Below are positions 1-64,000 of a stretch of DNA of 64,000 nucleotides, in pieces. Position 1 is the first letter of the stretch; each line of letters begins with the position of its first letter. The translations under genes were made by a program, and so were the position numbers. The stretch comes from Halichondria panicea (Eukaryota; Porifera; Demospongiae; Suberitida; Halichondriidae). The notes under the pieces were generated by a model. The model was not told the origin of the DNA. It saw only the letters and a program-made list of their open reading frames with translations, and ran no database searches. The DNA is taken from assembly GCF_963675165.1 (NCBI RefSeq), contig NC_087391.1, forward strand, positions 3,057,001 through 3,121,000, in the 5' to 3' direction.

Positions 1-236
1 GGTGGAAGACAGGTATCTGACAGAGATGAGCAAGGTATAGGATGTAGATCCATTGATAGATCTAGCTAGCATATTCTATCGTCTTGAGCCTCTCCAGATC
101 TCTGCATTAAAACGTTATTTTAACTCCAATTCAGTCACGAATTATAAGAAGTAAATCAGTTGTACAATCGACCAAAGATTCAACTGAGGCTTCTCAATTA
201 CGCTCTGGACCGTATCTTCAATGGTGCGATGAGCAG

Positions 237-922
237 ATGGAGGGCGCAATTGCTGCTGTTCACGCGGGTCACGCGGGTCAGTCTATTAGAAAAGCAGCTA
301 TGATGTATAATGTTCCACGATCGACATTGTCGGATAGAATAACCGGAATCGGTAGCAGACCAGGAAAAAAACCGTATCTTACGATCCAGGAAGAGAAAGA
401 AGTAGTGTTGTTTCTAAAGAAATGTGCTAGTATAGGTTATCCTTTTACAAAACGGGAAGCAATAGCACTAGTGCAACGAGTTCTGAACGGTAAAGGTCTT
501 GAACGATCTGTTACAGATGGTTGGTGGGCTAGATTTTCCCAACGCCATCCCTCGCTATCCTTACGTACGGCAATGCCTGCACGTGCAATGGCTACTGACA
601 ATGAAGTGCTAGGACGATACTACGACTTACTGGAAGACACGTTAGTTAAAAACGATTTACTGAATGATCCTCACAGGATATATAATTGCGACGAGACTGG
701 TTTACCGTTAAACCCTAAACCCCAAACATCCTTCCTATATTACTGGCGAAAAACTAAAACTCAAGTAACAGTCTTAGCATGCACCAATGCTGCTGGTGCT
801 GTGATTCCTCCTTTTTGTATTTTTGATCGAAAAACCCTTAACCCTCTGTTGACAAAGGGTGAAGTTCCTGGTACCCTATACGGGCTATCTGGAAATGGAT
901 GGATGACTCGGGATCTCTTTAA
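237..922 (+). pseudogene. pogo/Tigger-type transposase, N-terminal part, split by piggyBac insertion
   Basis: DNA-cutting and DNA-binding protein of a Tc1/mariner-superfamily (pogo/Tigger) transposon. Residues 1-45 look like a psq-type helix-turn-helix (RKAAMMYNVPRSTLSDRI). Residues 46-121 match the CENP-B/Tc5-type second HTH. The DDE_1 catalytic domain then starts with IYNCDETG, which carries the first catalytic Asp, and reaches GWMTRDLFN. The frame is open upstream to about position 111, so the true start may lie in an earlier exon; ATG 237 is the first methionine. At 919-922 the codons run into TTAA and a piggyBac terminal repeat, so the last residues before the stop near 1007 are piggyBac sequence. 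The rest of the domain resumes at 6715 in the same phase. A 9-bp in-frame duplication (HAGHAG) lies at 261-278. Family call is firm. Confidence 0.88.
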
Positions 923-1006
923 CCGATTAGCCGCGGTTATGATTTCATACGTAGTACCGCCCACCGCGGAACCATTTTTTCAAGTACTTCCAGTTTTCAG
1001 CCCTTA

Positions 1007-1690
1007 GCAAAGAAAGCTGCGTAGCTTCGAAACCGTAGCAGTTTTCTTTGGGCAACTTTGCAGCTAGCTAGTCTACAGTAGTTTCTCTATCAGGATCTCT
1101 TGGATTCCAACGGAATTGTCAACCAGCCAAGGCCACAGCGAAGGATCATTTTAGAGGTAAGCGTTTTGTTCGTATAAGGATCGCACTTGTAGCTTGTGAA
1201 CCCTTTATAAGCCTTCTTAGCGGATGTACTATGCTTAGATACCTACTTAGATGCCTCAGTATGTGGAGAGTATACTTTAGTAGTAGCTGAATAAGTTTAC
1301 AGACCCTTTTTAGAGTGTAGCCTACACGGTTAGATATTCAATTTTATCTTTTTGTTCAGCATTCGCCTCTGGCAAAGAAAGATGCATAACTTAGAAACTA
1401 TAACCCTTTTCTTTAGGCAACTTCGTAGCAAACTAGTCTACAGCAGTTACTCAGTCAAGATCTCCTGGTTTCCAATGAACAGTCAACCAGCCAAGGCCAC
1501 AGGGAAGGATCAATTCCAGAGGTAAGTTTTTGTGCGTATAGCGATCGTACTTGTAGCTACTATAGCCTTTATAAACTGTTTGAGCTAATCTAATATGCTT
1601 ATCCACCTTCCTAGATAGCTTCTGAGTGTGTAAAGTATACTTGAGCAATAGCTGGAGTCTTTTAGAGTGTATAGTGTACACGTACACAGT
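1007..1690. repeat. Two ~320-bp direct repeats in the piggyBac 3' region
   Basis: The stretches 1007-1330 and 1371-1690 are diverged direct copies. Each begins GCAAAGAAAG, passes through AACTAGTCTACAG-like and CCAGCCAAGGCCACAG motifs, and ends near TTTATAA. They lie between the element's left TIR and the transposase stop codon and fill most of that gap. No coding potential is seen in either copy. Confidence 0.7.
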
Positions 1691-3587
1691 TGACTTGTGA
1701 TGTTCAATTTTCCCCCATGTATTTCTAGTACTCATACTCTATGCAGTCATAATTGTTAGGTGAAGGTTATATATATAAAATAACTGTTTTTTAAGTTAGA
1801 TGTTCTTGTGCGATATCATAAAACAGTCAGTTGTTGGATTGCCTGTGTGGCAGAACCACTTCTGGCACTGATGACAAAACCATGCTGTGTATCTTCTCTG
1901 TTTGTTTGCCTTGCATAGGTGACAGCGACCTCTCTGTACATCCTTGTGGTGTAGCGGAAAGTGTGCCAATGGCAGGGACTTGTGAGATGAAGCAAGTGAT
2001 ATGCTCAGTCTCTTCTTGGAGCAGTAGTCTCCGATGAGCTCTTTGGCCAGCTGTTGTCGGAATTCTACAATTGACTTCAGCGTTTTGGTGGGCGAGTAAT
2101 GTCGATAAAGTATATAACTGTTTGTAATAGAAACGTCCTTTAGGAAAGAGTAGATTTACATATAGAATTTATGAAACTTGGTAGGGCATCTATAATACCC
2201 CCTTGCTGGTCTCCGCTGTCAACTCCCCCCATCATGCAGTTATAATCCTCTACGCACTGTGGGCATGGAACGGGCAGTCTCTCGCCCGTCTTGAGTCTTC
2301 GCTGGACCATTGTGATGGCAGTGGCATCGGATGCTGTTGACATAATGTGGACTACTTTAGTATCCATCCACGCTGTCACGGTGACTTTGTCCTTCTGGAG
2401 TATCTCGTATTCTCCCCTGAAAAGAGTAAGTTACATGTCATTTGTATGAGTGCAAGCTGCGCTGTGCTAATGCCTCTCGTAGAGTATATACATGTAGTAT
2501 AATGAATTTTACATAATTTGCATTTGACTGTGATTACAATACATTTGTGTCACGCACGGTCTATTGTAATTTTAGGATATACCTTAGAGAAATACGAGGC
2601 TGCTTGAGTGCCTCAGGAAACCCAATACGGTCAGAGCGAGCGGTCCCACATGCGTATATGCCGTCTTCCTCCAGATCTTCGAGGAGCTTGACTGACGTGA
2701 AGTAATTGTCAAAGTAGACGTGATGGTGGAGATTCTTCAAAGAATTTGTCAGATCTCTAACGACTCAATATCCCAATTGTTTCTCAGGTGTGCGTTCCCT
2801 CCCAGTATATACTTGCATGTTGTAAAAATACCCGTTTTGACTGTCTGCTAGCACCCACACCTTGATTCCTCTCTTCACAGGTTTGTTGGGGAGGTACTGC
2901 TTCAGTGAGGATCTGCCTTGGAACTTGATCATGGCCTCGTCAACGGAACATCACGGCCCAGCTTGTATGCCGCAGAACAGCGCTCGGTGATCATGTTGAC
3001 GAGGGGACGTACCTTACCTATGCGATCGCTACCGGGTGTGCCAGGAGTTGGGAGAGTGGTGTTATCGCAAAAGTGGAGGTAGCAACGAATATCTCGGAAA
3101 CGATCTCGTGATATTTTTGAGGCAATGGGTGAGTAGTGGTAGTGGGTATCTTTCTTCCAGTAGTCTTCAATAGACGGTAGTCGAACTATGCCCATAAGCA
3201 TGCAGAAACCCATGTGAGCCTTTAGCTCTGCAGCTGTCAGAGGTGTCCACTTTTGGTGCTGAGATGGGGTCATCATTTGAGAGGCATACCGATTTGTCTC
3301 ATCAACAATGTATTGCAGTATTGCAGGTGTGTAGAACCGCAGAAAGATCTCCAAGGGGGAATCTGATACTGGTACTCCTGTGGGACCAACAGATTGGGTG
3401 AAAGCCACTCGTGGATGGTCTCGAATGGTGGGAGTCCAAGGGCAGGAACCAGGAGCAGCACTGTTTATTGTAAGTGTGTGTGTGTGTGTGTGTACATAAC
3501 GGTGTGTTGAGTACATGTAGCTAATTGAATTGGGAATGCTAATTGGAAAACTCTAGTAGTACTGCATAGACCACTTCTGTTTGTGTG

Positions 3588-4830
3588 AGATAGTACCCTT
3601 TATAAATTCTCTCTACTAGTACTGCATAGACCATTGAGAAGCTGTATGTTATTATGATGGAACTACACTACCTCTTACATGTGTAAGGTTATACATATCA
3701 TTCTAGATGTAGGGTCATAATTAGGCAGACCAGACAGAGGTCACATAAATTTTTTTGGCTTCTGTTTGTGTGAGATCAGGGGCGTAGCCAGACTTTTGAC
3801 ATAGGGGTTTCCTTTGAAAAACCAGCGGCGCAGTAGCGCCGGGAAATTTTAGCCACGCCCACTTCCGGTACCACACCCTCTTGATTGGGGCACACCTACT
3901 GGTTACACCTACTGCTCATTGTTTGTAATGACTTTTTTTACATGTTTGTGATAAGCTAGCTAGACTAGCTAGTCTAGCTAGCTATAGACATTCTAAAAGG
4001 CAGGTGTCAATTGTGTATTGCTAGTCTAGCTGAGCACCATTACATTTACCTGAGAGGTTTCATGTGGCTGAGATTGTTCTAAACTTGTCCTTCCTGAATA
4101 TCGAATAAAGTTGTGCTTAGAGCTGAGTCTGAGAATACTGGAGCATGCAGGATTGATACTAGAACTTAAGTCTTAGTCTTGGTCTTCTTTGTTTGAGGTA
4201 GCTAGCTAGCCAGCTGAGACAAAGCTAGCCAAAGTGAAACGATTCACGGTGCTATCTCTACATGATTTGCAGCCACGTGCATGAAAAGATGGGCAGGGCT
4301 GCTTGATTTCAATTATTGGGGAGCCCTGCCCAATTTTCTCAGCAGCTCCTGGGGGGGTTTCTGGGCAACCAGGAAACAATGGTAGCTACGCCCCTGGAGA
4401 TAGTACCCTTTATAAATTCTCTCTATTAGTACTGCATATCTATTAGTACTGCATAGACCATTGAGAAGCTGTATGTTATTATGATGGAACTACACTACCT
4501 CTTACATGTGTAAGGTATACATATCATTCTAGATGTAGGGTCATAATTAGGCAGACCAGACATTAGGCAGACCAGACAGAGGTCACATAAATTTTTTTGG
4601 CTTCTGTTTGTGTGAGATAGTACCCTTTATAAATTCTCTCTATTAGTACTGCATATCTATTAGTACTGCATAGACCATTGAGAAGCTGTATGTTATTATG
4701 ATGGAACTACACTACCTCTTACATGTGTAAGGTTATACATTATTATTCTAGATGTAGGGTCATAATTATTTTAGAAAGGCCAAAGGTCACATTAATTTTT
4801 TGGGTTTTCTGTTCTTCTGTGAAGGCATCC
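3588..4830. repeat. Three tandem ~215-bp units, the first two separated by a hAT-like insertion
   Basis: Units start at AGATAGTACCCTTTATAAAT near 3588, 4399 and 4617 and end in a run such as TTTTTTTGGCTTCTGTTTGT. Unit 1 is followed by the 3777-4396 insertion. The unit 2/unit 3 junction (GTGTGAGATAGTACC) shows the empty target site. Unit 2 has a 17-bp tandem duplication (4422-4455) and a 16-bp one (4546-4577) that are absent from unit 1. All units lie in an intron of the piggyBac gene, with no coding signal. A shorter related piece occurs near 5459-5490. Confidence 0.72.
3777..4396. mobile_element. hAT-like non-autonomous element with 5-bp target duplication
   Basis: The ends are CAGGGGCGTAGCCAG and the inverse of TGGTAGCTACGCCCCTG. 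The 5-bp sequence GAGAT flanks both sides (3772-3776, 4397-4401). The neighbouring tandem unit has the empty site with one GAGAT. The 620-bp interior has no transposase. The termini match those of the autonomous-looking hAT element at 40868-43966, which also has a 5-bp duplication. Confidence 0.82.
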
Positions 4831-5313: not shown

Positions 5314-6714
5314 AAATATACAGTTACATAATTATTAGATGGTTGCATTTGTTCCCAATGAATATGCACCTAAGGTTAGTGGACTTGTGTTCTGTGTGAT
5401 ATGCACTATAATGTGTTTGTGTCCAACAGATACTAGGTTCTTAGGATTCCAAAGGTCACTTAATTTTTTGGGCTTCTGTTTGGGGTGAGAACAATGCCCT
5501 TCTTTATGAAGTTGGCTTCTCTGTTCCACAAATCATGTGTGGTTAGTATGGTGAAATTGCATGATGGTAGCAGTAGTAGTACAAGCATGAGCATTACCTT
5601 GCAGAAGTAGTGGACCTAGCTCTGCCTCTTCCTCTCCTACCTCTGTGCAAATAAATTATAAATTGTTGTAACAGTAGTAGTACAAGCATGAGCATTACCT
5701 TGTAGAAGTAGTACTAGTAGTGGTCCTAGCTCTGCCTCTTCCTCTGTGCAAGTACATGTAAAATTATTTATTCTAAACTTGCTAATACCTTTTCGTTGCA
5801 CCTGCTCCTCTGTAAATATTAGTACACTCAAAAGTAACTCTACTGTTGTGTAGTTGCTTTTACCTTGTCGTGGGAGGTTCAGGGTCAGCTGTTGAACGTG
5901 GAGGGACTGGGGGTGAGACGGAAGTGTCTGGGGGTAAGAAGGATGTGTCTGGGGGTGAGAAGGATGTATCTGGTGAAAAGTGGTATCTGGTGAAAAGTGA
6001 AAATCTATAGGTGAGAGAGTTATGTCAGCAGCTGATGGTGCGAGTGTTCTGTCTGGTGGTGAGTGAGAAGGGGACTCTGGGGAGGGTGATTGTCTTGGAG
6101 TGTGCCTGTGGGCAATTATTATAAGTATGTACATTTTGGCTCATTATTACATACTCGCAAGCGTCTTTAAATTGAGTAGGGGTGTCTCGATACTGTTGTG
6201 AATACCCCTCTTCCTCATGCAGGTCCATAAAATCATCATCGCTGCCGTCTGCCATGGGGTCGTTACAGTATTCTGTATCTGAGAAGTCTGAGAGGTCTGA
6301 ATCTTGGTCACTGCCATCCAATAGACCTTGCAGCACCTCCTCTCTAGTATATAGAGGCCTCTTTGTCATTGTTGCACTGTAGAATAAATTTTATTGTATT
6401 TGTTGTGATGTCTTGAATTGAATTTTTAATTTTTAATAATGCAAATTTCACTCGAAAATATCAGCATATTTTTTGATAACTAACCTGTGGTGATTGGTGT
6501 CTGGTGATTGGTGTCTGTACAGCTTCTAATGACCTTTGTGGGAATCCTTGCAAGGTTATGGAGACTCTGAAGGTGCTAGCTTACCACAACTGAGCTAATA
6601 GTGGAGTACTATGCAGCTGCCGCAATATTGCGTCAACCGCGGCTATCAGCTTATTCCGTAATCAGCTTATTCCGTAATGACGCAAATTTGCGTCAACCGC
6701 GGCTAATCGGTTAA

Positions 6715-7450
6715 TGAATGGTTCCAAAGACATTTTCTGTTGTATGCTCCATCGACTCGACCATTATTATTACTTTTAGATGGTCATTCTTCGCATTATT
6801 GCCCTGAGACGATACGGGCTGCTGCTGCTTCTCAAATCATCATTTTTGCTCTTCCTCCCCATACGACACACTTGACACAGCCTCTTGATAAGTCGGCCTT
6901 TGCTTGTTTGAAGAAATCGTGGCGAAAAGTTTGTCATGAGTTTATTGTTAGCAATCCTGGCCATGTGGTTACTAGGTATGAGTTTAGTATGCGTGAGAGC
7001 ATGACGATCCGAAATGTTTCATCGGGTTTTACGGTCACTGGAATCTGTCCATTTGAACGAAAGCTTCCTGAGTTAGATTTTGAGCCTGAAAAAATTCCAC
7101 AAGCCAATGGAATTGCTTACATTCCTTTGTATAGCACTCCCTCAAGACGCTCTTGTTGTAATGATTCTGTTTCATCCTCATGTTATCTTTCACCCAACCA
7201 TTCAGGCACCAAGATCAATACATGGCCGTCAAGGTTTGTGAGGGACGCACCTTGTCGAAGTTTTCCAAGACGACTCCCAACGAAACATGGAAAAAAAAGC
7301 GGAGCAGTTCTGACGAGTACCGAAAATCTTCGGATAATTAATACTAAAGAGGACGAAAAGAAGGAAAAGGAAAGACTAAAAGCTGAAAGGCAGAGAATAA
7401 GAGAGGAGAAAAAGCTGCTGAGTACTCCAAGGCAAAAAAGGGTCATGGTG
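6715..7450 (+). pseudogene. pogo/Tigger-type transposase, C-terminal part
   Basis: Continuation of the transposase begun at 237. The second catalytic Asp is in LLLLLDGHSSHY and the third in TQPLDKSAF, about 33 residues later, as expected for a pogo DDD triad. The motif SGFTVTGICPF follows, then a lysine/glutamate-rich tail (KEDEKKEKERLKAERQRIRE) likely to form a coiled coil or nuclear localisation signal. Some residues usual before SMTIRNV appear to be missing. The frame at 6715 is in phase with the one left at 922. A splice donor (GTGAGT) follows 7450, and further exons appear at 7501-7574 and 7619-7668, but their phases do not join cleanly. A near-duplication at 7557-7590 may be the cause. 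Confidence 0.82.
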
Positions 7451-7736
7451 GTGAGTATAATGTTGCTTTTACAATTGCTATCCAAGTTTTTATTACACAG
7501 CCAAGTTGAACAAAACTGGCAAGCCGTCGGCGTCTGCTTTTATTCGACAGTTGGCCTCGATGATAGACAGTCAGGTATGATAGACAGTGAGTTGTCCGTA
7601 CTCTTTTTTTACTGACAGTTCTCCTGCTATTTCATTTTCTGAGGAGGAGAAGCCAATTCCTGGACAAGGTATAATTACAATGTGCAAGCATTGAACAATG
7701 TGAGTTGTGACTATAAAATTTACGTATATTGTATAG

Positions 7737-9530
7737 GCAAGAGTGTGACCAAGTCTAGTAAACTGACATCAGCCAAGCAGACTGTTAGATCCTGGTATGT
7801 TACTAACTTTTGTAGAATATATATATATATATACATATACACACACTTATAATTATGTTATTAAATGTGGTAATGGTCACTACAGAGGAGAGTACTAGTG
7901 TGATGGACGCTGTGCAGAGCTCCAGCAAGACCAAGTCTAGTAAACTGACATCAGCCAAGAAGACTGTTGATCCTGGTATGTTATTACCTTATGTAGAATA
8001 TGTACACACACTTATGTTATTACAAATTTAAAATGTGTTAATGGTCACTACAGAGGAGAGTACTAGTGTGATGGACACTGTGCAGAGCTCCAGCAATACC
8101 AGGTCTAGTAAACTGACATCTGACATCAGCCAAGAAGACTGTTGATCCTGGTATGTCATTACCTTATGTAGAATATGTACACACACTTATGTTACACACA
8201 CTTATGTTATTACAAATTTAAATATGGTAATGGTCACTACAGAGGAGAGTACTAGTGTGATGGACGCTGTGCGGAGCTCCAGTAAGACCAGGTCTAGTAA
8301 ACTGACATCAGCCAAGAAGACTGTTGATCCTGGTATGTTATTTACCGTACGTAGAATTATGTACACACACTTATGTTATTACAAATTTAATATGGTAATG
8401 GTCACTACAGAGGAGAGTACTAGTGTGATGGACGCTGTGCGGAGCAGACCAGACCAGGTCTAGTAAACTGACATCAGCCAAGAAGACTGGTATGTCATTA
8501 CCTTACGTAGAATATGTACACACACTTATAATTATGTTATTACAAATTTAAGTATGGTCACTATAGAGGAGAGTACTAGTGTGATGGACGCTGTGCGGAG
8601 CTCCAGCAAGACCAGGTCTAGTAAACTGACATCAGCCAAGAAGACTGTTGATCCTGGTATGTCATTACCTTACGTAGAATATGTACACACACTTATAATT
8701 ATGTTATAAGTGTGGTAATGGTCACTATAGAGGAGAGTACTAGTGTGGTGGACGCTGTGCGGAGCTTCAGCAAGACCAGGTCTAGTAAACTGACATCAGC
8801 CAAGGATCCTGGTATGTCATTACCTTACGTAGAATATGTACACACACTTATAATTATGTTATTACAAATTTAAGTATGGTAATTATGGAGGAGAGTACTA
8901 GTGTGATGGACGCTGTGCGGAGCTCCAGCAAGACCAGGTCTAGTAAACTGACATCAGTCAAGAAGACTGTTGATCCTGGTATGTCATTACCTTACGTAGA
9001 ATATGCACACACTATGTTATTACAAATTTAAGTATGGTAATTATGGTCACTATAGAGGAGAGGAGAGTACTAGTGTGATGGATGCTGTGCGGAGCTCCAG
9101 CAAGACCAGGTTTAGTAAACTGACATCAGCCAAGAAGACTGTTGATCCTGGTATGTCATTATCGTATACAAACAGTGGTACACACACACACTGTATAATG
9201 AGTGTATAATTATGTTATTACAAATTTAAATATGGTAATGGTCACTACAGAGGAGAGTACTAGTGCGATGGACGCTGTGCAGAGCTCCAGGAAGACCAGG
9301 TCTAGTAAACTGACATCAGCCAAGTCTCCAGTAGTCACTGAACCTGGTAAGTACAAGTTGTTTACACATTATAATCTTGCGTCCCTGGATTTATTGCTGT
9401 GTGTGGAGGTACCTAATTGCAGTACATATTATTATTCGTTACTTATAAAAGGCGTAAATGACTTTGTGGCCTCCGTTACCATAATTATTTGGTCACTTCT
9501 GTAGGAAATCTATCAGAAGATACTCACTAG
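7737..9530 (+). repeat. Tandem array of ~90-nt exons ending the pogo-derived gene
   Basis: A unit of about 165 bp is repeated about nine times. Each holds a ~90-nt segment bounded by ...CACTACAG and |GTATGT, with introns of 74-100 nt. Segments lie at 7886-7975, 8054-8150, 8243-8332, 8411-8489, 8567-8656, 8731-8811, 8889-8978, 9061-9150 and 9251-9346, after a related 58-nt segment at 7737-7794. Five are exactly 90 nt; others are 81, 96, 97 (7-bp duplication) or 79. The seventh unit seems to have lost its acceptor. All use phase 1, so each 90-nt exon adds 30 residues such as EESTSVMDAVRSSSKTRSSK. The last exon starts at 9505 and reaches stop TAG at 9528-9530. The repeat is Ser/Thr/Lys rich with no known domain. 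Assignment to the transposase gene is inferred from strand and proximity. Confidence 0.78.
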
Positions 9531-9707: not shown

Positions 9708-10000
9708 GAAACAAGTGTAGCCATACCCCAAAATTTTTTTATAAAGTACAACTCAGTTTTACCATTTTTGTGGTGCCCGGAATGATGCGTATCATTTACA
9801 GGTGCAGGTGCACAGAAATCAGGAAAACTGTCGCATTTTCTATTTAATGCCCTCTACTTAAATATGCGTATTTCAATTTTCCGCTTCACCGAAAATGATA
9901 GACATCATATCCGGATAGACATCATATCCGGGCGCCATAAAAATGGTAAAACTGAGTTGCACTTCACAAAAAAATTTGGGGGTGTGGCTGCACTTGTTTC
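9708..10000. mobile_element. MITE with ~62-bp imperfect terminal inverted repeats
   Basis: 9708-9772 and 9939-10000 are inverted copies (GAAACAAGTG ... CACTTGTTTC; both contain CAACTCAG/CTGAGTTG and TTTACCATTTTT/AAAAATGGTAAA). The interior has a 17-bp tandem duplication at 9897-9930. No coding sequence and no clear target duplication were seen. Confidence 0.72.
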
Positions 10001-10886
10001 ACTGTAGCTCCACCCCTGAAAGTCACATGACTTTAAAAACACATTCAACATGTTCCTTCATTATAAGACTACATTATTGCAAACAGTTTATATTGTATGT
10101 AACCATCCAAAAGATATAATCACATATACAAGATTCCCCAGCCATAGACACAGGCAGCTCATACACACTACATGTACAAGGACACTCATTCTCAGCAGTA
10201 TGTAGACTACATTGTAGTATCTGAAAACTATCTCGTTTATTCAGCTATTTGTTCATGATCTATATCTGGAGACCACATATACAAGAAATCCACAATAAAT
10301 CCCAATAATTAATTGAGCCATCCTTAACATCCTTAACAACACTGAGAATTTATTGTGACCTATAATTATAATTGACCTATAATCATAATTGTCTCGTGGG
10401 TCACTGTACATAGACGAATTCTTATGCCTAGGCGTTCCTGCTTGCTTCCAAGGTTTCAATTCAATTAGGCTGACTACTCATTAGGCTCACTGTGTACATG
10501 TACAGTGGTTGATTGCATAATAATGTTCTGACCTTTTCAGGGGAAAGCAAAGGCTTGTTGGGTTTATGAGTGTACTGTTTACTTGTGTAAGGACATTTTC
10601 TTCCCAACATAATAGGCTTGTTGGTTGCCCTAGCTAGGATTAGGTCACAATTTGTCATTAGTTGGCTTGTGTGTTTGCCTGTGATATTCTGTGCCCAAAG
10701 TTGAATCTTTTTATGAACTCCCAGTTTGTTGTAGGATCACAATTGTGCATGTAAGTTTGCTTGTGGGAGCCTATACATAATTATGTCTAAGGGTGAGATG
10801 TACTGTACTTTGTGTATGGCTGTTCTCAGTATACTTCTTTAGGTTTGTTGGCTTGTGAGTTAGTGCTGTGCAGAGTTAGTGCTGTG
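10001..10886. other. AT-rich stretch without recognised genes
   Basis: Contains ATAATTAT and TGTACATGTACA palindromes and small direct duplications (10317-10335, 10367-10400, 10858-10889). Open frames of 65-68 codons on the minus strand have no recognisable motifs. The part around 10510-10680 resembles 11690-11840 weakly and may be old intron sequence of the piggyBac family. Confidence 0.4.
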
Positions 10887-11393
10887 CAGAGGAGTAGGAA
10901 GATGTTTTTGTAAGAGGGTGCTGATGTGGCCTCCTGTGGCTGGAGGCCACTGAAAAATCTGGGGTCCGGGGGCTTGCCCCTGGAAAATTTTGGCATTCTA
11001 CATTCCGGTATAAAATTCTCAGTATCAAAATTTGCCCAAATAATTAATTCTACGTGAGTTTACCTGGATAAATTGTTCTGCTATTATAATATACTATACA
11101 ATAAGGTTCATGTTCGTCATCAGGTTCATGTTCATTTAAAAGATGTTTGCTACAATGTGGTTCATCTAGCTGACCTTTGTACTGTGTACGTAACTATGCT
11201 AGTATAGCTAGCTAGCTCAGTAACTATTAGCTACTAGCTCGACTACTAGCTAGCTAGCTGCTTATATCAAGCTAGCTAGTAGTATCTAGCTGTTCTAGCT
11301 AGCTGTTCTGAACTTCATGGAGCAAGTAGGTAAGGTAGCATGAGATAAGGGGGTGCTCCAGCACCCTGAGCACCCGTGCTTCCTACGCCACTG
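10887..11393. mobile_element. hAT-like non-autonomous element, 5-bp target duplication CTGTG
   Basis: The ends read CAGAGGAGTAGGAAG and, inverted, CAGTGGCGTAGGAAG. Both sides carry CTGTG (10882-10886, 11394-11398). The subterminal GGGTGCT motif is also inverted. The interior is rich in CTAGCTAG and non-coding. A 16-bp tandem duplication (10858-10889) covers the left target duplication plus the first three bases of the element, so it formed after insertion. Confidence 0.72.
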
Positions 11394-11879: not shown

Positions 11880-12280
11880 CTGTGAAACAATCGTCACTGC
11901 TATCTGCCATGGTACCACCACCATCTTATGGGTCTGAGAAGTCCTACTCACTGTCACTACTATCCAAGATACCCAGGATACCTGTGTACAGAGGCCTCTT
12001 TGTTATTGTTGTACCATAGAATTAATTGTTATAATGTATGTTTGATATTGAATTTATATAAATACAAATTTCACACGAAATTTTAAGCAAATTTTTGATT
12101 GCTAACCTATGGTGATCGGACTTGGTATGGCTTCTGTTGACCTTCGAGAGAAGCCTTGCAAGGTTGTAGCTTACCACAAATTAAATAAGAGTAGAGTAAT
12201 GTGCAGTTGACGCAAATATGCGTCATCCGCGGTTAACAGCTTATTCCTTAATGACGCAAATTTGCGTCAACCGCGGTTAA
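11880..12280 (-). pseudogene. 5' end of a second piggyBac copy (degraded first exon and TIR)
   Basis: This parallels 6240-6714. It has a broken minus-strand first exon (shared AGAGGCCTCTTTGTTATTGT, corresponding to the MTKRPLY start), the ACCTATGGTGAT segment, the TGACGCAAATTTGCGTCA subterminal motif and CCGCGG followed by TTAA at 12277-12280. The last 8 bp of the TIR found in the intact copy are absent. The rest of the element was not found to the left. This copy has single versions of two sequences that are tandemly duplicated at 6488-6515 and 6645-6676. Confidence 0.65.
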
Positions 12281-12744: not shown

Positions 12745-13405
12745 TTAAAGTGGGTACTGCTCAGCTATACTTTCTAAAAGTTTTTCAAGTAAATCCAATG
12801 CTCCAAACCTTCTTCTCCACAGAAACTCAATAAGATATGTGGGGAAGAGGTTACTTGAAGTATTCATGACTCCTTGCTTTCTCATCATTCGTTTAGTGCA
12901 TGACCAATGTCCCTCTACACTCTGGGTGTGAGCCCCGGTCACTGGATCAACGAAGTCGTTCACTGTTTCGTTCACTGTTTGGTGGGTGTATCCAGAGATG
13001 CCAACGTCGAAGTACGCACGCCATTCAGTAGGCTCAACGAAGTCGTTCACTGTTTGGTGGGTGTATCCAGAGATGCCAACGTCGAAGTAGGCACGCCATT
13101 CAGTAGGCACGCCATTCATCAGATATGACAGTTGTTCCAGGCCTGATATAAGTTTGGATTATTGGCATGAGAGTTTGCTTCGTCTTGTCAGGAACGACCA
13201 CCATGAAAGCATTGGATGTTCCTCGCTCTATACCACCAAACACCCAGTGGCCATCCGTGACCCGCCCACGATTGTACACCATATTTATGTACAATTTATT
13301 TATGTACAATTTCTGTTTCAGGGTGAGCAACAGCCTTCTCAAACCCACCCACAACGAGCACAAGAAGAGTGGATGCTCATATGCCAGAGAACAGCAAATC
13401 TTCAA
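12745..13405 (-). pseudogene. Merlin-type (IS1016-like) transposase with internal duplications
   Basis: The DDE transposase core of the eukaryotic Merlin superfamily is clear: VTDGHWVFGGIERGTSNAF with the first catalytic Asp, TTVISDEWRAY with the second, and AHTQSVEGHW with the Glu, followed by FLWRRRFGALDLLEKLLESI and a tail ending AEQYPL. A 75-nt in-frame segment (12947-13033 and 13034-13108) is duplicated, repeating EWRAYFDVGISGYTHQTVND. The first copy also has a 12-bp duplication (12957-12980). A 16-bp duplication at 13086-13117 shifts the frame right after DEWRAY, which splits the gene. The usual N-terminal cysteine cluster was not found upstream; 13320-13405 is unlike the family. Confidence 0.85.
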
Positions 13406-15624: not shown

Positions 15625-17045
15625 CTAGTCCTTGGGTCGTGGAGTCGCAATTGTTGTGCTCTGAAATGAACAAGCCACATGTCGCAAGCCACATGTTGAT
15701 GTGTTGTTTGTTCTTCCTTGTTCTTCCTTTTCTGAGCCATAACGTGTAGCTTCGTTAGCTTCGTTGCCTCTAAATGTGCTGTACAGTACTAGTACTATTC
15801 CTCCCACTCTCGATGCTGTAATTCTTTTCCTTCTCTCATACTTCCACTCTGCCTGTTGTCTTGTTTTCTTCTCAATTGTTTGTGCTTCTTCGCGACCACT
15901 TTTGTCTGGTAAAAAGCTGTGTGTACTTGCTTTTTCGTCTTTGTTCTTTTGCTTCATTTGTTCCTTTTCTCTTTCTGTCATTAGAGACTGTCTTAGCAGA
16001 ACGTTCTCTGTTCCTCAGGTCTGTGGTCCCCATTTTCTTCCAAGGTTCTGCCTAAGCCCTGCTCCCATGCAAGAGCCACTCTGTGATCAATTGATGACCT
16101 TCCCACCGTCAAATTTAGCAGCATCCAACATTCTGTTGTCTCGTTTCCTATCAGCTGAGATGCTTTGCTCACAAGTCGATTTAGTTGTACCTGAATGTCA
16201 TGGTAAAGTCGTGGGTCCACGTTTGTTGATGTGTGTCCACCTTGTCGAGCTTCCAATCGTACCATCGGATCGTCATCAACAGTTTCACTCTCTTGTGTAG
16301 TAACTTACACTTGCCTCAATTAATGTTATGTTTTTATTCTGTAGGTCTGAACTCACCATCAAGCACGTCATCATTGTCTTCGCTGGAAGTTGACGGTTGA
16401 GATGTGGACTGAGTGAGGATATTGTTGCGGATGAGAGCTTGTCTTGTGCTGTAGCTTGTCTTGTGCTGTCTTACAAAAGTCAGGGCTGCAGTCATCGTGA
16501 AAGCCAAAACAAGTCCATTCTGCAAGTCACCATTCTGCAAGTCACGTTTGAGTGATATCAGGGCCTTCTTCGGGTCGCTCTCCGTACTCCTCATCCTGAT
16601 TGCAGCTCGAGCAGCAGACACTTTCTAGCGTAAGTCCACCAGTTCCCTGCATCTCGGTAACACTTGCAAGCGCTTCTTGATGGCATGTCCCCACCCTGGA
16701 ACATTCTGTATGAGCGTAGGATGCACAGAACTATCTCCGACACAGAACTATCTCCGTCTCCTATAAAGTCTATGTACCGCACATGCTCTCCATTTCAGAA
16801 GATGAGTTGCGGAAACGGCATGGCAGTACTTATTTCGCACACGCCGCCGATAATGATGGCAACACCTGAGTTTGCATTGTAGGAGTGCCCTGCTTTGGCC
16901 ATTAAATTTTGCTCTCCGATATTTCTCTCAGTTGAGATGAAGCTCGCTTTTGTCATAGTGGGAATTCCCATTTGCTCCTCCAGCTGAGAATGACCACCCC
17001 CCGTAGCCATCTGCCCCCACACCGCAGCAAGATTGCACTCCCACC
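15625..17045 (-). pseudogene. Mutator-like transposase with C-terminal YqaJ-type nuclease start, broken
   Basis: Blocks read in order on the minus strand. WECNLAAVWGQMATGGGHSQ and PTMTKASFISTERNIGEQ (17045-16900) match the start of the invertebrate Mutator-like transposase domain. HSYNANSGVAIIIG follows, but the segment that should carry the first catalytic Asp between GEQ and HSYN is missing. YIDFIGDGDSSVSE (16770) carries the next Asp. Then come ARAAIRMRSTESDP and SKASQLIGNETTECWMLL, and near 15850 RQQAEWKYERRKRITASRVG, typical of the start of a YqaJ exonuclease domain, after which it degrades. Tandem duplications of 17 bp (16436-16469), 15 bp (near 16520) and 17 bp (near 16735) contribute to the breaks. 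Confidence 0.75.
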
Positions 17046-43498: not shown

Positions 43499-43541
43499 TT
43501 ATTAAAAGTTAGCATAATTATAAATAATTTAATACTATTAT

Positions 43542-43589
43542 CATACATTTACATTTTCATACATTTACATTTTCATACATTTACATTTT
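43542..43589. repeat. 16-bp unit in three tandem copies
   Basis: CATACATTTACATTTT repeated exactly three times, 45 bp upstream of the hAT start codon. Confidence 0.9.
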
Positions 43590-47399: not shown

Positions 47400-48080
47400 T
47401 TTGTTGTGCCTCCACTTGCTGACCCTCTACCAACCACCACGCCCCCTAACGCCTAACGCCACGGTACAAGCTCACTGTTCATTACTATACTATACCTATA
47501 CTAATACTATACCAGAGTCACACTATGAGCATATTTTTGTTATAATAAATGAAAATAAAAATCATGTGACCATCATGTGACCAATTAAAATGAAATTTCC
47601 TTGTAAAACTAAATTAAAAAAAGAGGATTTGTTCCAGCTTAGTTAGATCCTATCTTTTCTTGGAATCCTGATGTACATATCATATACTGATGAAATCCAG
47701 CTGCGCAAAAGCAGATTCATAGGTAATCATGGTCTACACAAACAACATGCTAAGATTTATGCTAACCCTCCTAACTTTCTTGTTTGGCTGCACTCTGTCT
47801 TGCGCAGCAGGACTTGTCTTAGTTAAGGCCTTTAATAGCTACTAGGTAGCCTTAGGTAGCCTACAAGAAATCCGTTTTCAGGGTTTTACTCGATCAACTA
47901 GCTACGGTCAACTTCAGTAAGTTAAGTACAGTGTCATGTGACCGAAGCTCCACCCCCAACCCCACTAGTAATTGCAGACGTTTTCCACCCACGCACGTGA
48001 TAAACATTCCAATGCAATGACGCCAGACGCCACATGCATGTGTATGAATCTCATTATAACAAAATTCTTAATTTGGACAG
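47400..48080. other. Spacer without recognised genes
   Basis: AT-rich. Small duplications near 47386-47415 and 47562-47582. No open frame with recognisable motifs. Confidence 0.35.
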
Positions 48081-48245
48081 CCCCTGAGTAGCTGCACAAA
48101 CTTAGTTTCCTTTACAGTTGCCTTAGACACTCCAAACAGATGCCCGATAGCAACCCTCTAGTTACAGCTTTCCTCAGGATAGACGCAGTCCCACCAGTAG
48201 GAACTTCTCTTCTTCGGCCACAGCAACCTCTCAGATGTACACAAA
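48080..48245 (-). pseudogene. PIF/Harbinger nuclease fragment (tentative)
   Basis: A minus-strand frame reads ERLLWPKKRSSYWWDCVYPE and, after a stop, RVAIGHLFGVSKATV. The R-x-x-x-W-W and RVAI...LFGVS-ATV patterns resemble the N-terminal part of Harbinger-type nucleases. The catalytic residues would lie downstream and are not visible. Short and broken, so other origins are possible. Confidence 0.35.
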
Positions 48246-49405: not shown

Positions 49406-51270
49406 ATATCACAGCATGCTTTAACAGCAGCTGCTGTTCCAGATAGTCTACAACGCTTGATGAGAAAAATGTAGGCTCCTTGCGAAATTGACATCACAAT
49501 GAGAAGCAAACGTTACTCAATGCTAGGGTATTGTGTAGTGGTACTTCGCTAGAAATGTCAGCCGGCATCCTCCATTAACATTCATCTTTTGCAGGCAAGT
49601 CGTTTATTGAACTCGTACTCAAGATGCCAAAGAATCTGTCAAGATACGAAGAACACCCAAGCCCTACGAGTCATTAACTCGACTGTAGAGGTAAAAGTTC
49701 GAGAACATTCATGAACCGTTAAACATGCTGACTCATTATTTAATTGCAACTACTGTTTTGATGATTATGATGATGATGGATGATGATGAGACATAACATA
49801 ACAATTGAATAACATAACAATTGAACCTCGTTAATCTGAGTCAGAGGCATCTTCAGGAGTTGGCTGCTGGCAGTCTGACTTCGCTTTCGGTTTAAAAATT
49901 AACTGCTTCTGGGTGTAGTCTGTTTCCGAGTAACTTTGAACTTTTCAACCCAAGCACTTGCCAATGAAAATTAATCCACGAATTTTTACCCAATCTTCGA
50001 CAAAATTATTCTTAACAATTATTCTTAACAGGGCCAGTCTGTACACCACTGCCAGTCTGTACACCCAGTCTGTACACCACAGAAAATTAACATCCTCATT
50101 TTTTTTAACATTAGGTGCTTAACATGTTTTCTCAATTCCATTGCAACAAACAGTTCATAAGTTAAGTTATTGGTGACACCACCTCTGTTGATTAACTCCA
50201 CCTTGATTAACTCCACCCACTTCTGCGATTCATGCTCACTCTCGTCCAATGCTCACTACAAAGTAGCATTTTTCAGTTGATTTTCGAAGTTTTTCTCGTG
50301 GAATATAGCCTGCAGCACTCTTCTGAGGTAGAGTGTACTTGGGTCTTGCCGTGGATTGCACGTTAGCTCTTTGAACATTAAATTATGGTGCCGATAGAAC
50401 ACACTTTAGCAGGGAAGCCCAGATTTCATGGTAAATCTTGGATGTTCGCACAGTGTGGTAGGTCGTCCACATTTTCTCTCTCTGTTTTGGCTGTGGACTG
50501 GAAGCACTTTCTGAAGCAGTCCCTTTGAAAAACTTGAGATTGGCAGGAACCAGCTTCTCAGCAATCTTATTGCTTCTTAAGTGTACTTGCTGCAGCAGGA
50601 GTGGATATTTTGAAGGAATCCCCTTGTAAGAGACATTTCAAGAGTAGAGAACCTAGAAAAAAAATTCTAAAAGCTTACACAAACTGCACACACACAGTCA
50701 CACACACAGTCACTAACAGTCACTACTTACTTGATGGTCACTACTTACTTGATACACCATTCTTCCTAGCAACACGTACTAGCAACACGTAAATCTTTAT
50801 ACTTCCTGTGTACTTCTTCCTGCCCTGCCATGCCATGCTGCTTCCGTCAAACGCGAGTTCATGTGATCTCGTTCATGTGATTTCGTTCTCGTTTTCAATC
50901 CCCTTCCTCTACTATCTATGGACATAGCACAACATACTTTACTCAATCAGCTAGGTATAGGTACGAGAGTACAAACAAAAAGTAAAAAAAAAAACCCTCT
51001 CATAATAATTACTACTAGAGTCAGTGGATAGAGTGTGCTGTAGAGCCAGCTGCAAAAAAACCTCCTACAACAATAATAAGTGTTGAATTAACAAACATGC
51101 TTGACAAATGTATTGTTATATGTATTGTTAAAATAACAATTTCTTATGCTCAGTCTGTTGATCGAGAAACAATTTAAATTGCTCTTTAATTGAGCCACAC
51201 ATCATAACAACATACGTACAACAAGGGCTCACATTTTATACCAGAAAAGTGAACTGATGAACTTGGGGGA
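49406..51270. other. Mostly unrecognised; a coding-like minus-strand trace near 50.3-50.6 kb
   Basis: The minus strand around 50590-50420 reads EKLVPANLKFFKGTASESAS and KMWTTYHTVRTSKIYHEIWA, protein-like but not assignable; frames then break. A (CACACACAGT)-type duplicated run lies at 50683-50715. The remainder has many small duplications and no gene. Confidence 0.25.
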
Positions 51271-51282: not shown

Positions 51283-52435
51283 GATTTCTTGTGGTAGCGT
51301 AAGCAATTGCAGAAGTTGTTCGCCTCCAAAATAAAATGATGAAGTATTGCAATCCTCGTCCGTTTCCATAAAGTGCACAATATTATGGCTGGGTGCCTCG
51401 GGTTCCACGTAGTATACAGAACCTCAAAGAAAATATTAATAAAATGTTAGTTAGGCAATTAACATAGTACAAAAGACAAACAGGTACAACTTTCGGAATT
51501 AAATTCTCCAATTTCTTTTGTCTTGATATTGTACATGCCAGACAACGTACAGAAACACAGTGCTATAGCTATTATATATACACAGCAACACTTATGAGGT
51601 ACATACATTATCATATTTTAGTGTCATTTGTGTATGGTCTGTGATATCTGCCGTTGACCGTCGTTGGGTATCTCTGCAGTAGAGGATGACTAACAAAGTG
51701 ATCTCAAAGTGAAAGTACTTACTAAATTGACGCAAAAAATAGTCTTCTGAGCTTGAGTACACTACAATAAAAAGAAAGTCAATAGACAGCGATATCGGTT
51801 TAATGAAGAGGGCTCGGGCTCAGGTTCGACGGCAAAAGTTCGACATCAGAAGTTGACTTTTTTTGCAAACTCGAAGCCAGAAGCCAGTAGTATATATGAA
51901 TTCTGCAAAAAGCAACTTACTTGTCTTGCAGAAATGTTAGTTTCCAAAGATATTTGGACGGCCAGAGTGGGGTTTTCTTCTGTGGAATGAAATGGGAACG
52001 GCATCCTGCTCTGCATAAATAATTATAATTGGCTATACTGAATACTCGTTTTTATGTAACTATCGTTTTTATGTAACTATAATTATAATGAAGTGATGTT
52101 ACGAGTTTAGTTGCTAAAAGTTAGTAAGTAGTACGCCTTTTTCGGGGTGGTGAGTGTAATTATAAGCAGCACTAAACACAGATTGTATTTAAACATACCG
52201 TTGGCGTCTTCTGCAATGGTGGGGAATGGTGGGGAAGTACTGAACAGACATGTGGTCTCTTGGATGCACAATGAACGTAAAATATTGTGCCATCTTTAAG
52301 CCACTCTAAGATCCCAGAGATGTACCCAAGCCATACTTGATACGCCCATCCAAATCTTTTAAGTAATGGTCAACGATCAACGACAGTCATGTATTCCAGT
52401 TCCAATGGAGCAAGAGTAGAAATAGGAGTAGACAT
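51283..52435 (-). CDS. Possible small spliced minus-strand gene, unrecognised
   Basis: Coding-like pieces: a start at 52435 (MSTPISTLAPLELEYMTVVD) meets a stop at a 7-bp duplication (TCAACGA twice near 52370). GWAYQVWLGYISGILEWLKD follows. An exon at about 52014-51924 (RMPFPFHSTEENPTLAVQIS) has an acceptor TTTATGCAG and donor GTAAGT. A terminal exon near 51420-51283 reads SVYYVEPEAPSHNIVHFMET, then FGGEQLLQLLTLPQEI and stop. Joins and frame of the first exon are uncertain. No family recognised. Confidence 0.3.
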
Positions 52436-52741: not shown

Positions 52742-53140
52742 CCCTTTAAACGCCACGGGCCACGATCGTGGCCCGCAATAAGTGACTTTTTTTCGCGAAT
52801 TTCAATTTCGCGATACCTAGGCACATCCCTGTATAGAGGAAGAGCTGTAGAATCACGTGCAATTTAGTCTAGAATTTTCCAAGCCACGTTGCTATGTCTT
52901 ACCACACGAAGCTATGGCTAGGTTGTTTACTTGTGCCGATGTGCTTGAACAGCTTGAGGGCGATGTCTCCTCTGGTGATGACAGAGGGATACCTGCTACC
53001 AGATGAACATGGACCTACCAGGACGACCGACTACTATAACCCGTGATGCGCCTCGGGTTAATTACTCACAGCTGGAGTACATTCCAGAGTATAATACATT
53101 CCAGAGTATAATTATTAAAGCTGCTTGATCTTGAGCGTTG
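52742..53140 (+). mobile_element. 5' end of a short piggyBac-family element
   Basis: TTAA (52738-52741) followed by CCCTTTAAACGCCACGG and the palindrome GGGCCACGATCGTGGCCC, then a first-exon start at 52914 (MARLFTCADVLEQLEGDVSS). The same order occurs in the copies at 58852-59639, 60005-60750 and 60763-61378. The far end was not located; a fold-back repeat follows. Confidence 0.7.
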
Positions 53141-54249: not shown

Positions 54250-54606
54250 CTGCTTGCTGTGTGACGATAATTTTTCTTCAATTGCGACTAAACGAGTTTC
54301 TTGCCTATCCAGTTTCTTGCCTATCCAGGCGATCCACCAGGCGATCAAAAGAGTTAGTGATGATAGGATCACTACTGCTGTCATTTGATCTTTGGGGCGG
54401 CTTTTCAAGTGCCAGAGCTCTTTTCCTAGATGTATCTAGGACTTTAGAGCTTGCTTCTCGGCTTGGTGTGTGCCACTTATCACGTCTTGTGTGCTCGTTC
54501 TCCTCGTCAGATCCATCATACTCAACGAACAAGGGTCCGATAGTTCACTCTCATCGGCACCAAAAATGTCTCCACTTTGATAGCCATCACCACCGGCATA
54601 TTCCAT
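54250..54606 (-). CDS. Acidic, probably coiled-coil protein divergent from the CACTA gene
   Basis: Starts at 54606 (MEYAGGDGYQSGDIFGADES). After a one-base frame change near 54533 it continues FVEYDGSDEENEHTRRDKWH, and its end reads NSFDRLVDRLDRQET...AIEEKLSSHSKQLA, a likely coiled coil. A 15-bp duplication near 54297-54328 lies within that coil. Stop after KQLA near 54250. About 110 residues. It starts about 310 bp from the first CACTA-type exon, in the opposite direction, as does the gene starting at 63378 relative to the second CACTA-type gene. Possibly an accessory protein of the element; not recognised by family. Confidence 0.45.
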
Positions 54607-58851: not shown

Positions 58852-59639
58852 CCCTTTAACCGTCGGATTCTTAATTACAGTGAAGTGAAATTACAGTGAA
58901 GTGAAATGCCTGTAAATTCTCTATTGGGACCATATACCAATAGAATGCCCATACAACAAGGAATAAAATGGTGCAACATGTGTTGCCATAGCAACCACGG
59001 TTATTGCGCCCACCCGTTATTATCATTTTAAATGCCCGGCCAGCGGTGAGATAAAATCCAAAAAATTTTTTTTATGGATCATCCTATCATATGGTATAAA
59101 GGCTTAGGCTTGACTAAGCTTGATTTTCACATCATATGAATAACAGTGCTAAGATATATCTTGACATCAGAGAGAAGGTGGAACGATCTATGAAATTTAC
59201 AAGCTCACATAAAGACTGGCTCACATAAAGACTGTTCATTACTGCTAATTCTCTTACTACTGATATTCTAGCTATACTCCTGGTCCATGGCGCTAGCGTC
59301 TAGGTCTATGTCCTCAGTCCCAGACAGTTCATCAGCGTCTGGCATAAAGCTGGTAGCCTTTGGGAGGTATCCCACTATCCCCTCTCCTTCATAGGCACTG
59401 TCATCACCAGAGGAGACATCGCCATTGCTGTCCTCAAGCTGTTCAAGCACATCAGCACAAGTAAACAACCTAGCCATAGCTATAAACTTTGTGCGGTAAG
59501 ATAAATTCTAGACTAAATTGCACGTGATTCTACAAGCTCTTCCTCTATACAGGGATGTGCGTAGTTCCCTAAGTATCGCAATTTCGCAAAAAAAGTCACT
59601 TATTGCGGGCCACGATCGTGGCCCGTGGCGGTTAAAGGG
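58852..59639 (-). mobile_element. Short piggyBac-family element (788 bp)
   Basis: Left end CCCTTTAACCG; right end CCGTGGCGGTTAAAGGG followed by TTAA (59640-59643); the left flank is TTTA, one change from TTAA. Near the right end the first transposase exon is kept on the minus strand (59477 downward: MARLFTCADVLEQLEDSNGD). The rest of the transposase is missing, so it would depend on another copy. A 16-bp duplication at 58873-58904 is absent from the copy at 60005. Another lies near 59211-59240. Confidence 0.82.
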
Positions 59640-61378: not shown

Positions 61379-61771
61379 CACTATGTAAAATAATAGGTTT
61401 ACAACAAATGGGAACGCAAAGAAAACTTTATGATTCCTAAATGTTTCTATTCCAGGAAACATTTAGGTTTCCATGCTATAATAAACTTGATGCCACGGCA
61501 AAATTCTTATATAGGAAACATTTGTCAACATTATTTTGTCAACATCATGTATCTGTAAATGAAAACAAACAAAAAACATTATAAATAAATTAATCATGGA
61601 AACAATGATAAATTCCAAAAGGAATATTGAGTTTCATAAATGAAAACAAACAAAAAACATTATAAATAAATCATGGAAACATGATAAATTACAAAAAAAA
61701 TATTGAGTTTCATAAAATTGATGAATCACAAAAACATGTTAAGATAAAGTGTTCAGAATCCAACTTTTAAG
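61379..61771. repeat. AT-rich spacer with ~85-bp tandem duplication
   Basis: AATGAAAACAAACAAAAAAC, CATTATAAATAAAT, ATCATGGAAACA and ATATTGAGTTTCATAAA occur twice in order (about 61557-61638 and 61639-61717). Non-coding. Confidence 0.7.
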
Positions 61772-63378
61772 TTACTGCTGCTTCAGCATCCACTCAGGAA
61801 TATCATTAACTTCAGGGCAGGGTCTCGTGGAAGATTGGCCTTCAACCCGAGAATAAGACATCCGTTTACTTCGCTTGGTCTGAACTCTTTGCAAACTTCT
61901 TGTCAAGGCCTGAAAATAATCGTGAAACTCGATCATGCCTCCAAGGAAGGGGTCGAACAATGAAAGAGCTGCTTTCGGTATCCCCATCACTCTCCTCACT
62001 GCTCATAAACTTGTGACAGCCAGAATAATTTTTTTTTTGTTCTTCAGTGAGAGAAGTTGTTTTAGCAAAAGCAGCTTTACGTCTGGCCAGTTTCTGTAGA
62101 ACAAATACCACAACAAGTAATAATAAATAGACAAACTAATAGAGTGTATAGGACATTATCGTAACTAGATACTTCTGCAAAACACACTTTTGCTCATATT
62201 TTCCACCACTTTTTAGCCGAGAAGTATTTACACGACTCTGGAAGTATGTCCTGACAGCATCTGCATGGTTGATTAAGTGGGTATTAAATCACAAGTACCA
62301 GTACCTTTAAGAACGCTGCGTGGTGCGTCTGAGCATTGGGCCTTTGCTTCAGCAACTATTAGTTTTGTCACTTCTTGATTGCTGGGGCGAGTAAATGATG
62401 CCCTACAGAGAACATTGATAAATTATCCCATGTATAGGACATAGTCTGGTGTAATTTGATAACCTACTCTAGATCCCACCGGTAAGGGTCTTCATTGTCC
62501 TCATCACTAAACACTTTATATAATTTTCTGACCATCTCCTGTAGGTTGCACAAATATTTTTATGCAGTGGCTGAAGTCTATGTATTTCATGTCAATACTG
62601 AAGCCATAGGTTAGTAGTCACAAGCCTGAGTGCTTAACTCACCCGTATCTCACGGCTAGGACGAACCTTCAAGTTGTTGCTCTAATTGGGCAATTTTGCT
62701 TGACTTCACTTCCTTCAATATTTCCTGTAGCATTCCGGTATCTACGACAAACATAATCGACATTTGCACACAGGGTATTTACCACAAGAGGTGATCTATA
62801 TAGCTTATATATTATTAATTTACTGCGTGCAATTACTGATTACAGGATTAATCACTGTACGAATCCCAGTGAATAATAGGACAACATACGATCAATCGAT
62901 TATAATGGTAATAATAATTATGTAATTATGCCATAATTATATGAACTTCTAGTTGAGTCCATGACCTTACCCTGAGAAGTGTGGCTGAGAGGCGTGGCAT
63001 TGTCTCTTGAACCAGAATTCCCATGGCCAGGCCTTGATGACTCAGAACTAGAAGCTGAAGATCCAGACCATCTATAGCGTGGCTGATGGTTTACAGGTGG
63101 ATGGTCCTAGATGAGCTGGAGCTAGATGATGGAGTTGTAGACTTGTTAGTTATGTCAACATCATAGTACCACTTTGGGGCTTCATTTTCAAGGTCCCTAG
63201 AAAATGACTGAAGCAAATTTCGGGAAACAGATGAGAGCCTAGCCTTTGCCTTTGACTTGCTTTGTGGGCGAAGTTCAATTGGTGTATGTGGAATCACATT
63301 AGGAGAATTTTCAACTTCACTTTCCAAGTCAGAGAGCATAGCATGTCTAACTGGGTTTGAATGAGCAGTATAAGCCAT
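61772..63378 (-). CDS. Multi-exon gene, acidic/coiled-coil, divergent from the second CACTA-type gene
   Basis: Exon 1 runs 63378 to about 62971 (MAYTAHSNPVRHAMLSDLES; serine-rich; DNATPLSHTSQ at the end) with one frame change near 63095. Next: about 62741-62668 (DTGMLQEILKEVKSSKIAQL, likely coiled coil), 62538-62468 (EMVRKLYKVFSDEDNEDPYR), an exon ending near 62306 (ASFTRPSNQEVTKLIVAEAK), one ending near 62174 (AVRTYFQSRVNTSRLKSGGK) and a last exon of about 62098-61772 (KLARRKAAFAKTTSLTEEQK; LPWRHDRVSRLFSGLDKKF; STRPCPEVNDIPEWMLKQQ, stop). The last three join in phase with GT-AG sites. One frame change near 61880. The tail LPW...RP-P...P-W recalls a widespread metazoan transposon-associated protein, but I cannot name it. 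Confidence 0.5.
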
Positions 63379-63744
63379 CGTTAAGTGTGCCTAGCCAGCT
63401 ACAGTACTTTGGCTTACCGCCTTTTTGGGGATAAATCATGTGACTGAATGTGCGCATGGGCAGACAATATAATTATAGCTGGGCGTAGCTAGCCCGACTA
63501 GGCAGACAACTGCATACACCGGACTTGAGCTTTAGGTGAGCTAATATTTACTATATACAGTAGTCTAACTAGTAAGCCTCTAGCTGTATAAGTGTTAGGC
63601 CCTCAAATAGTTTATTTATTTTCTTCTCTTGCTATTTTTGACCCAACCCACCTATACTGTTAGCACTAATGTGGATAATGTCTCTCTGTTGGCTTTTATA
63701 ATTATACAACTTAGCTTTAGTTAAACTTTTACCGACTCCACAGA
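63379..63744. promoter_or_regulatory. Intergenic region between divergent genes
   Basis: 366 bp between the start at 63378 (minus) and the start at 63745 (plus). It should contain both promoters if both are expressed. No TATA box or initiator can be assigned with confidence. It contains CTAGCTAG-type palindromes. Confidence 0.3.
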
Positions 63745-64000
63745 ATGGATTCCACATATAAAAGAAAGTTGCAGTTGTTCTGTGGGCACTGCCATATGTA
63801 TATGAATGAGAAGAGTATATGAATGAGAAGACATACAAAGAGCATCACAGAATGTATTGTGTTGATGGTAAATGGTTGAAGTCTGATCACCTTCAAAGTG
63901 ACAGTTCTCGATCATCTTCTCCACTAGAGTTGGATTCTTCTAGTTTGGGAACACAATCACTCGATGATATGGATATTTCCTACCAACATGATTCTGAAGA
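63745..64000 (+). pseudogene. Second CACTA/EnSpm-like gene, 5' exon, cut by the window edge
   Basis: ATG 63745 (MDSTYKRKLQLFCGHCHMYM) followed by TYKEHHRMYCVDGKWLKSDH and an acidic/serine-rich stretch (SDSSRSSSPLELDSSSLGTQ). The C-x2-C ... K-x-H-x3-Y pattern matches the first exon of the CACTA-type gene near 55.0 kb. A 17-bp tandem duplication (63798-63814, 63815-63831) falls inside the finger and shifts the frame; otherwise the exon is open to the window end. The rest lies outside. Confidence 0.65.

Follow-up and report, generated by a model that had tools for sequence, protein, structure and literature searches.

Exact tandem duplications with lengths ending at 17 bp in a chromosomal domain of the sponge Halichondria panicea

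A 64,000-nucleotide stretch of the Halichondria panicea genome (assembly GCF_963675165.1, contig NC_087391.1, positions 3,057,001 to 3,121,000, here C15:3057001-3121000; hereafter, the window) raises the question of why so many short sequences within it stand twice in a row. A sequence-only reading had listed 17 such sites, and all 17 prove to be exact tandem duplications (TDs) of the unit that it gave. We find that they belong to a domain of chromosome C15 in which TDs are far more frequent than in the other regions sampled from this assembly (131 Mb in 39 contigs), and in which their lengths end abruptly at 17 bp. It is reasonably probable, in our view, that these TDs are scars of staggered breaks that were filled in and end-joined, much more commonly in this domain than in the rest of the sample.

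An exhaustive scan of the window, with simple repeats removed, identified 101 perfect TDs with a period of 9-17 bp, 64 of which have a period of 11-17 bp. The mean over 20 order-3 Markov simulations is about 0.45 for periods of 9-17 bp; Tandem Repeats Finder gives the same picture. By period, from 9 up to 17, the numbers are, respectively, 19, 18, 8, 7, 11, 6, 5, 12, and 15, followed by zero TDs at periods 18 and 19, and one each at periods 20 and 38. Several further repeats of 16-17 bp have copies separated by a single extra base. The density of TDs varies from 1 to 13 per 4 kb and their spacing is near random (10 of 98 gaps are shorter than 60 bp, for 8.7 expected). We found no Rfam matches in the window. 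The features to which we refer are the following (window coordinates, strand, description):

1-64000, no strand, whole window, within the TD-rich domain sampled at C15:3.017-3.402 Mb
4422-4455, +, 17-bp TD, recurs in a segmental copy (4639-4672)
4546-4577, +, 16-bp TD in one copy only, lacking in both paralogues (3540 and 4597)
4639-4672, +, 17-bp TD, unit as in 4422-4455
5966-5999, +, 17-bp TD
6488-6515, +, 14-bp TD, single in the paralogue near 12113
6645-6676, +, 16-bp TD, single in the paralogue near 12237
9897-9930, +, 17-bp TD
10857-10888, +, 16-bp TD
13086-13117, +, 16-bp TD
16436-16469, +, 17-bp TD
16724-16756, +, 16-bp direct repeat, 1-nt spacer
24455-24489, +, 17-bp direct repeat, 1-nt spacer
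28139-28170, +, 16-bp TD
33831-33864, +, 17-bp TD
34410-34443, +, 17-bp TD
37014-37048, +, 17-bp direct repeat, 1-nt spacer
38601-38633, +, 16-bp direct repeat, 1-nt spacer
39030-39061, +, 16-bp TD
39053-39086, +, 17-bp TD, overlaps the TD at 39030-39061
39622-39655, +, 17-bp TD
40542-40575, +, 17-bp TD
43541-43589, +, 16-bp unit in three copies
45734-45767, +, 17-bp TD
46010-46043, +, 17-bp TD
47386-47417, +, 16-bp TD
47548-48083, +, dispersed-repeat copy, basis of the copy-by-copy test
49793-49824, +, 16-bp TD
50719-50753, +, 17-bp direct repeat, 1-nt spacer
52046-52079, +, 17-bp TD
53078-53111, +, 17-bp TD
54295-54326, +, 16-bp TD
58873-58904, +, 16-bp TD, single in the paralogue near 60016
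59203-59234, +, 16-bp TD
63798-63831, +, 17-bp TD

The duplications had been proposed to be derived, and this is borne out for the five TDs that we aligned with a paralogue in the window. In each case the paralogue has the single form: the copy near 3588 for the TDs at 4422 and 4546, the one near 12113-12237 for the TDs at 6488 and 6645, and the one near 60016 for the TD at 58873. The derived state is also seen as copy-specific insertions in two copies of a dispersed repeat (L045 and L060). These comparisons bear on the suggestion, made from the sequence alone, that the assembler doubled short overlaps. Such an artefact, of assembly or of polishing, is very improbable, even if a sharp limit of 17 might come from a k-mer setting. 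The 17-bp TD at 4422 is also present in a segmental copy at 4639 (98% identical over 155 bp), while the third copy, near 3588, is single. Because the TD at 4422 occurs in two copies and that at 4546 in one, the events can be ordered: a first TD preceded the segmental duplication, after which the copies diverged and one of them gained another TD. Some TDs have also mutated since: at period 17 we counted 22 perfect ones, 7 with a single mismatch, 2 with two, and 2 with three (a set that includes the pieces L035 and L036 and omits L030), whereas shuffles gave none. Finally, the other sampled regions of the same assembly show no excess. The TDs thus lack what an artefact should show, i.e., identical copies, independence from sequence history, and an assembly-wide spread, and on the assembled sequence an artefact appears unlikely.

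The excess is regional. In 14 pieces of 10 kb, from C1 to C14, we found 17 TDs of 9-17 bp in 140 kb, of which 12 have a period of 9-10 and 5 a period of 11-17, whereas the C15 pieces at 3.017-3.402 Mb besides the window have 66 in 37.8 kb (1.75/kb). Overall, the domain pieces, window included, have 1.58-1.75 TDs/kb, against 0.12-0.18/kb in the rest of C15 (5 TDs in 28 kb over ten pieces, 0.18/kb), in the 14 pieces of other chromosomes, and in a ladder of eleven 2-kb pieces along C13 (3 TDs in 22 kb). The C15 pieces at 2.957 and 3.617 Mb have zero TDs. When TDs of 11-17 bp are pooled, the domain has 114 over 101,785 bases and the outside pieces 11 over 190,000, a 19-fold difference (p ~1e-39) for domain limits that were chosen only after the first flanking pieces were seen. 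The pooled rates exclude L001-L007, L034, L035-L040, and the dispersed-repeat copies except L042 and L045; L035 and L036 are a non-random sample because they were picked for a repeat also present in the window. Hence, the unusual mutational mode previously offered for this genome, as one of two readings, is too wide: the excess is limited to the domain around the window. Base composition was rejected as the cause, since TD-rich and TD-poor sets are alike in G+C, CpG (0.57 and 0.52), and related dinucleotide ratios.

A few other pieces are rich in TDs: C13 at 3.189 Mb (9 in 3 kb), C2 at 4.878 Mb (4 in 3 kb), and, weakly, C12 at 3.38 Mb (3 in 2.5 kb). The C13 pieces at 3.10 and 3.30 Mb lack TDs, and the rich spot of this chromosome is therefore narrow or patchy. 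Its nine TDs (L036) are of 9-14 bp, with zero of 15-17 bp; the upper length limit may thus differ between domains, although the number is small. The C15 domain lies 50-57% along its chromosome, and the rich pieces of C2, C13, and C12 at 56%, 49%, and 50%. Position alone suggests that the domains may be centromeres, but three of the four pieces picked in mid-chromosome are empty: those at 50% of C3, C9, and C16 have zero TDs in 3 kb each. The piece at 51% of C4 also has zero TDs, in 10 kb. We entertain, as a tentative and rather unlikely extension, that some mid-chromosome domains undergo recurrent breaks, programmed or locally concentrated, with a fixed overhang of ~17 nt, produced by a single enzyme or chromatin geometry that has no sequence preference; the TDs would then be their fossil record and the domains might be centromeres.

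The length spectrum also sets the domain apart. Its 170 two-copy events (three events with more copies were dropped) are distributed as 26, 27, 24, 14, 14, 9, 11, 14, and 27 for periods 9 to 17, and 0, 2, 1, and 1 for periods 18 to 21. TDs of 16-17 bp outnumber those of 14-15 bp (41 to 20, p = 0.01), and the spectrum ends abruptly, with 27 events at period 17 and none at 18 (p = 1.5e-8). Outside the domain, the short periods of 7-10 prevail (53 of the 64 events of period 7-17). Since the spectra inside and outside differ, the domain has its own bounded class of TDs, which adds to the ordinary class of short ones.

Break repair often leaves short tandem duplications. Those of the domain resemble the ones left by end joining, as their copies are exact and adjoin without insert or large spacer, and show little or no dependence on microhomology. 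In the 16-17 bp class, 20 of 41 junctions lack microhomology, which is the chance level (22.0 expected), whereas in the 9-15 bp class only 41 of 125 do so (67.2 expected, p = 3e-6), an excess of microhomology that is modest (mean of 1.31 vs 0.82). This split fits complete fill-in and blunt joining for overhangs of 16-17 nt. The single extra base between some copies of 16-17 bp is a residue that end joining can leave, and we count it in favor of this mechanism.

In the process that we favor, two nicks on opposite strands, at most 17 nt apart, would produce a double-strand break with complementary single-stranded overhangs of up to ~17 nt. Fill-in of both overhangs, followed by non-homologous end joining, would then double the inter-nick sequence. 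Blunt joining after complete fill-in would give the 16-17 bp class, whereas the class of 9-15 bp would result from trimming or from incomplete fill-in with one or two bases of microhomology. Such breaks would arise, or be repaired in this way, far more often in the C15 domain, and in some smaller spots, than in the rest of the sampled regions. The duplications are what we observe; we infer from them that a break with overhangs occurred and was end-joined. Fill-in of staggered breaks had already been put forward by the sequence-only reading, and it remains the best fit to perfect copies, the absence of spacer, insert, and clear motif, a bounded length, and microhomology in the shorter class only; what did not hold is the idea of a genome-wide mode.

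In 145 events, we found no clear motif at the boundaries of the duplications. T at positions +1 and +2 gives the strongest signals, in the 34 events of 16-17 bp (chi-square of 8.1 and 6.7, 3 d.f.), but these fail given the number of positions tested. The lack of a clear motif led us to reject a sequence-specific nuclease as the source of the breaks. The G+C content of the units equals that of the flanks (0.409 vs 0.407).

The same boundaries bear on an alternative in which the endonuclease of an element, e.g., a LINE-like one, nicks both strands 16-17 nt apart and the insert is not kept, so that the TDs would be "empty" target-site duplications. We regard it as improbable. A range of 7-17 bp with a peak at the upper end may be similar to that of LINE target-site duplications, which would speak for this explanation, and the genome has at least 150 matches to reverse transcriptases (the best 150 of 616 candidates). 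Yet, a clear nick-site motif is lacking in the 145 events, apart from the weak excess of T at +1/+2 in one subset, and nothing is inserted between copies, which adjoin or lie 1 nt apart. Filled target sites of at least 15 bp are not seen in the window for spacers up to 8 kb. At these distances, direct repeats of 15-17 bp with unrelated flanks show no excess: a search that skipped words occurring more than 12 times gave 4 pairs of at least 15 bp, 3 of which come from one paralogous unit at 3557. Because distant direct repeats of such length are not in excess, we rejected the idea that the TDs are filled target-site duplications.

Mobile elements have left several fragments in the window. A domain scan of 10 of its 11 open frames of at least 150 aa revealed HTH_psq/DDE_1 (237-1007, +), piggyBac-type DDE_Tnp_1_7 (2929-3516, -), DDE_1 (6740-7615, +), RT/RNase H (26841-27347, -), and DUF4371 (42269-43498, -). 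The window also has a tandem array with a period of ~168 or 322 bp (7838-9324) and, at a chromosome-internal site (21530-21553), the telomere hexamer of animals, TTAGGG, four times over. Elsewhere, we noted 28-bp units arrayed in tandem on C7, near 2.1 Mb (L014), 28 homeodomain matches in the genome, and a COX1-like fragment with two in-frame TGA (L034, C1:5280527-5280718), which is probably a nuclear copy of mitochondrial DNA. The homeodomains and this fragment give the genome an animal-like character.

One may also ask if the domain differs in age rather than in rate. TDs could form everywhere at a similar rate and persist longer in an old, gene-poor domain, the other regions being younger or purged, an account that we find doubtful. 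In line with it, the domain appears rich in decayed mobile elements and paralogue pairs, and its stretches with long open frames (L026, L027, and L030) have few TDs. The dispersed repeat at 47548-48083 allows a comparison copy by copy. We identified 29 further copies, and the family is larger than this because only the best 40 of 800 candidates were scored. TDs of 9-17 bp were sought inside each copy or within 200 bp of flank, and an 11-bp repeat found at one place in several copies was set aside as inherited. The 2 copies of the C15 domain both have TDs, against 5 of the 27 elsewhere (L048, L049, L059, L060, and L088), although these numbers are small. L060 (C2:4.769 Mb), which has five TDs, is near the rich C2 piece. 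There are no TDs in L050 and L058, which are as diverged as the domain copies, nor in L080 and L082, the most diverged ones (75% and 71% BLAST identity to the window copy). Furthermore, the ratio of perfect to decayed TDs at 15-17 bp is 53:33 in the domain and 5:15 outside (p = 0.005), where some decayed cases are other repeats. The dispersed-repeat copies, few as they are, favor a regional rate over age alone and, together with this ratio, speak against age as the sole cause. In the window copy near 47843 (10 bp) and in L045 (17 bp and one base), duplications start from the identical base, which could be a recurrence or a shared event that was later shortened.

Several points weigh against filled-in staggered breaks in a regional hotspot. 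The breaks, and any enzyme behind them, are deduced from assembled sequence. The limit of 17 nt is not predicted by the published mechanism, as overhangs of 43 nt also yield TDs (PMC8355091) and rice TDs remain frequent up to ~125 bp (PMC7971508). When the two length classes are compared directly, the contrast in microhomology only has p = 0.09. Lastly, young mobile elements within the domain are poor in TDs, as in L030, with 1 TD in 4 kb and a frame of 1113 codons; age therefore matters within the domain, and may account for part of the contrast between regions.

Should the breaks be real, a domain with 1.6 TDs/kb and an edge at 17 bp would be a natural map of staggered breaks, with which one could seek the enzyme or chromatin state that determines the overhang. 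It is also a warning that indel rates can vary by more than an order of magnitude among regions of one genome. In the literature surveyed, the coverage of which is limited, we found neither a comparable TD-rich domain nor a length limit of 17 bp, which is no proof of novelty.

Among known systems, minisatellites and slippage also yield direct repeats, sometimes in three copies as at 43541-43589, but here 170 events of the domain stay below three full copies, against 3 above that, and the 16-17 bp class has no excess of microhomology. LINE target-site duplications have comparable lengths, but here there is no element between copies, no clear nick motif, and no filled sites of this length in the window. 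The closest likeness is with end joining. In mouse cells, paired nicks lead to TDs via end joining (PMC5730883, PMC8355091) and breaks with protruding ends do so via its canonical form (PMC5730883), and 3-prime overhangs are filled in by CST and polymerase alpha-primase in mouse cells, where 43-nt overhangs are repaired with TDs (PMC8355091). Rice TDs, common up to ~125 bp, are ascribed to the repair of adjacent nicks (PMC7971508), in primates and flies most insertions are TDs, with two geometric regimes of length (PMC2374710), and such TDs make up most of the short insertions of human, fly, and rice (PMC5730883, PMC8355091, PMC7971508, PMC2374710). The TDs described here are like those of mouse ES cells, plants, and human indels in being exact, adjoining copies of what would be the inter-nick stretch, with little or no microhomology and a derived state. 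Unlike those of rice, primates, and flies, they cluster in a domain and end at 17 bp. We regard the TDs of the domain as a known mutational product in a regional form with a length limit.

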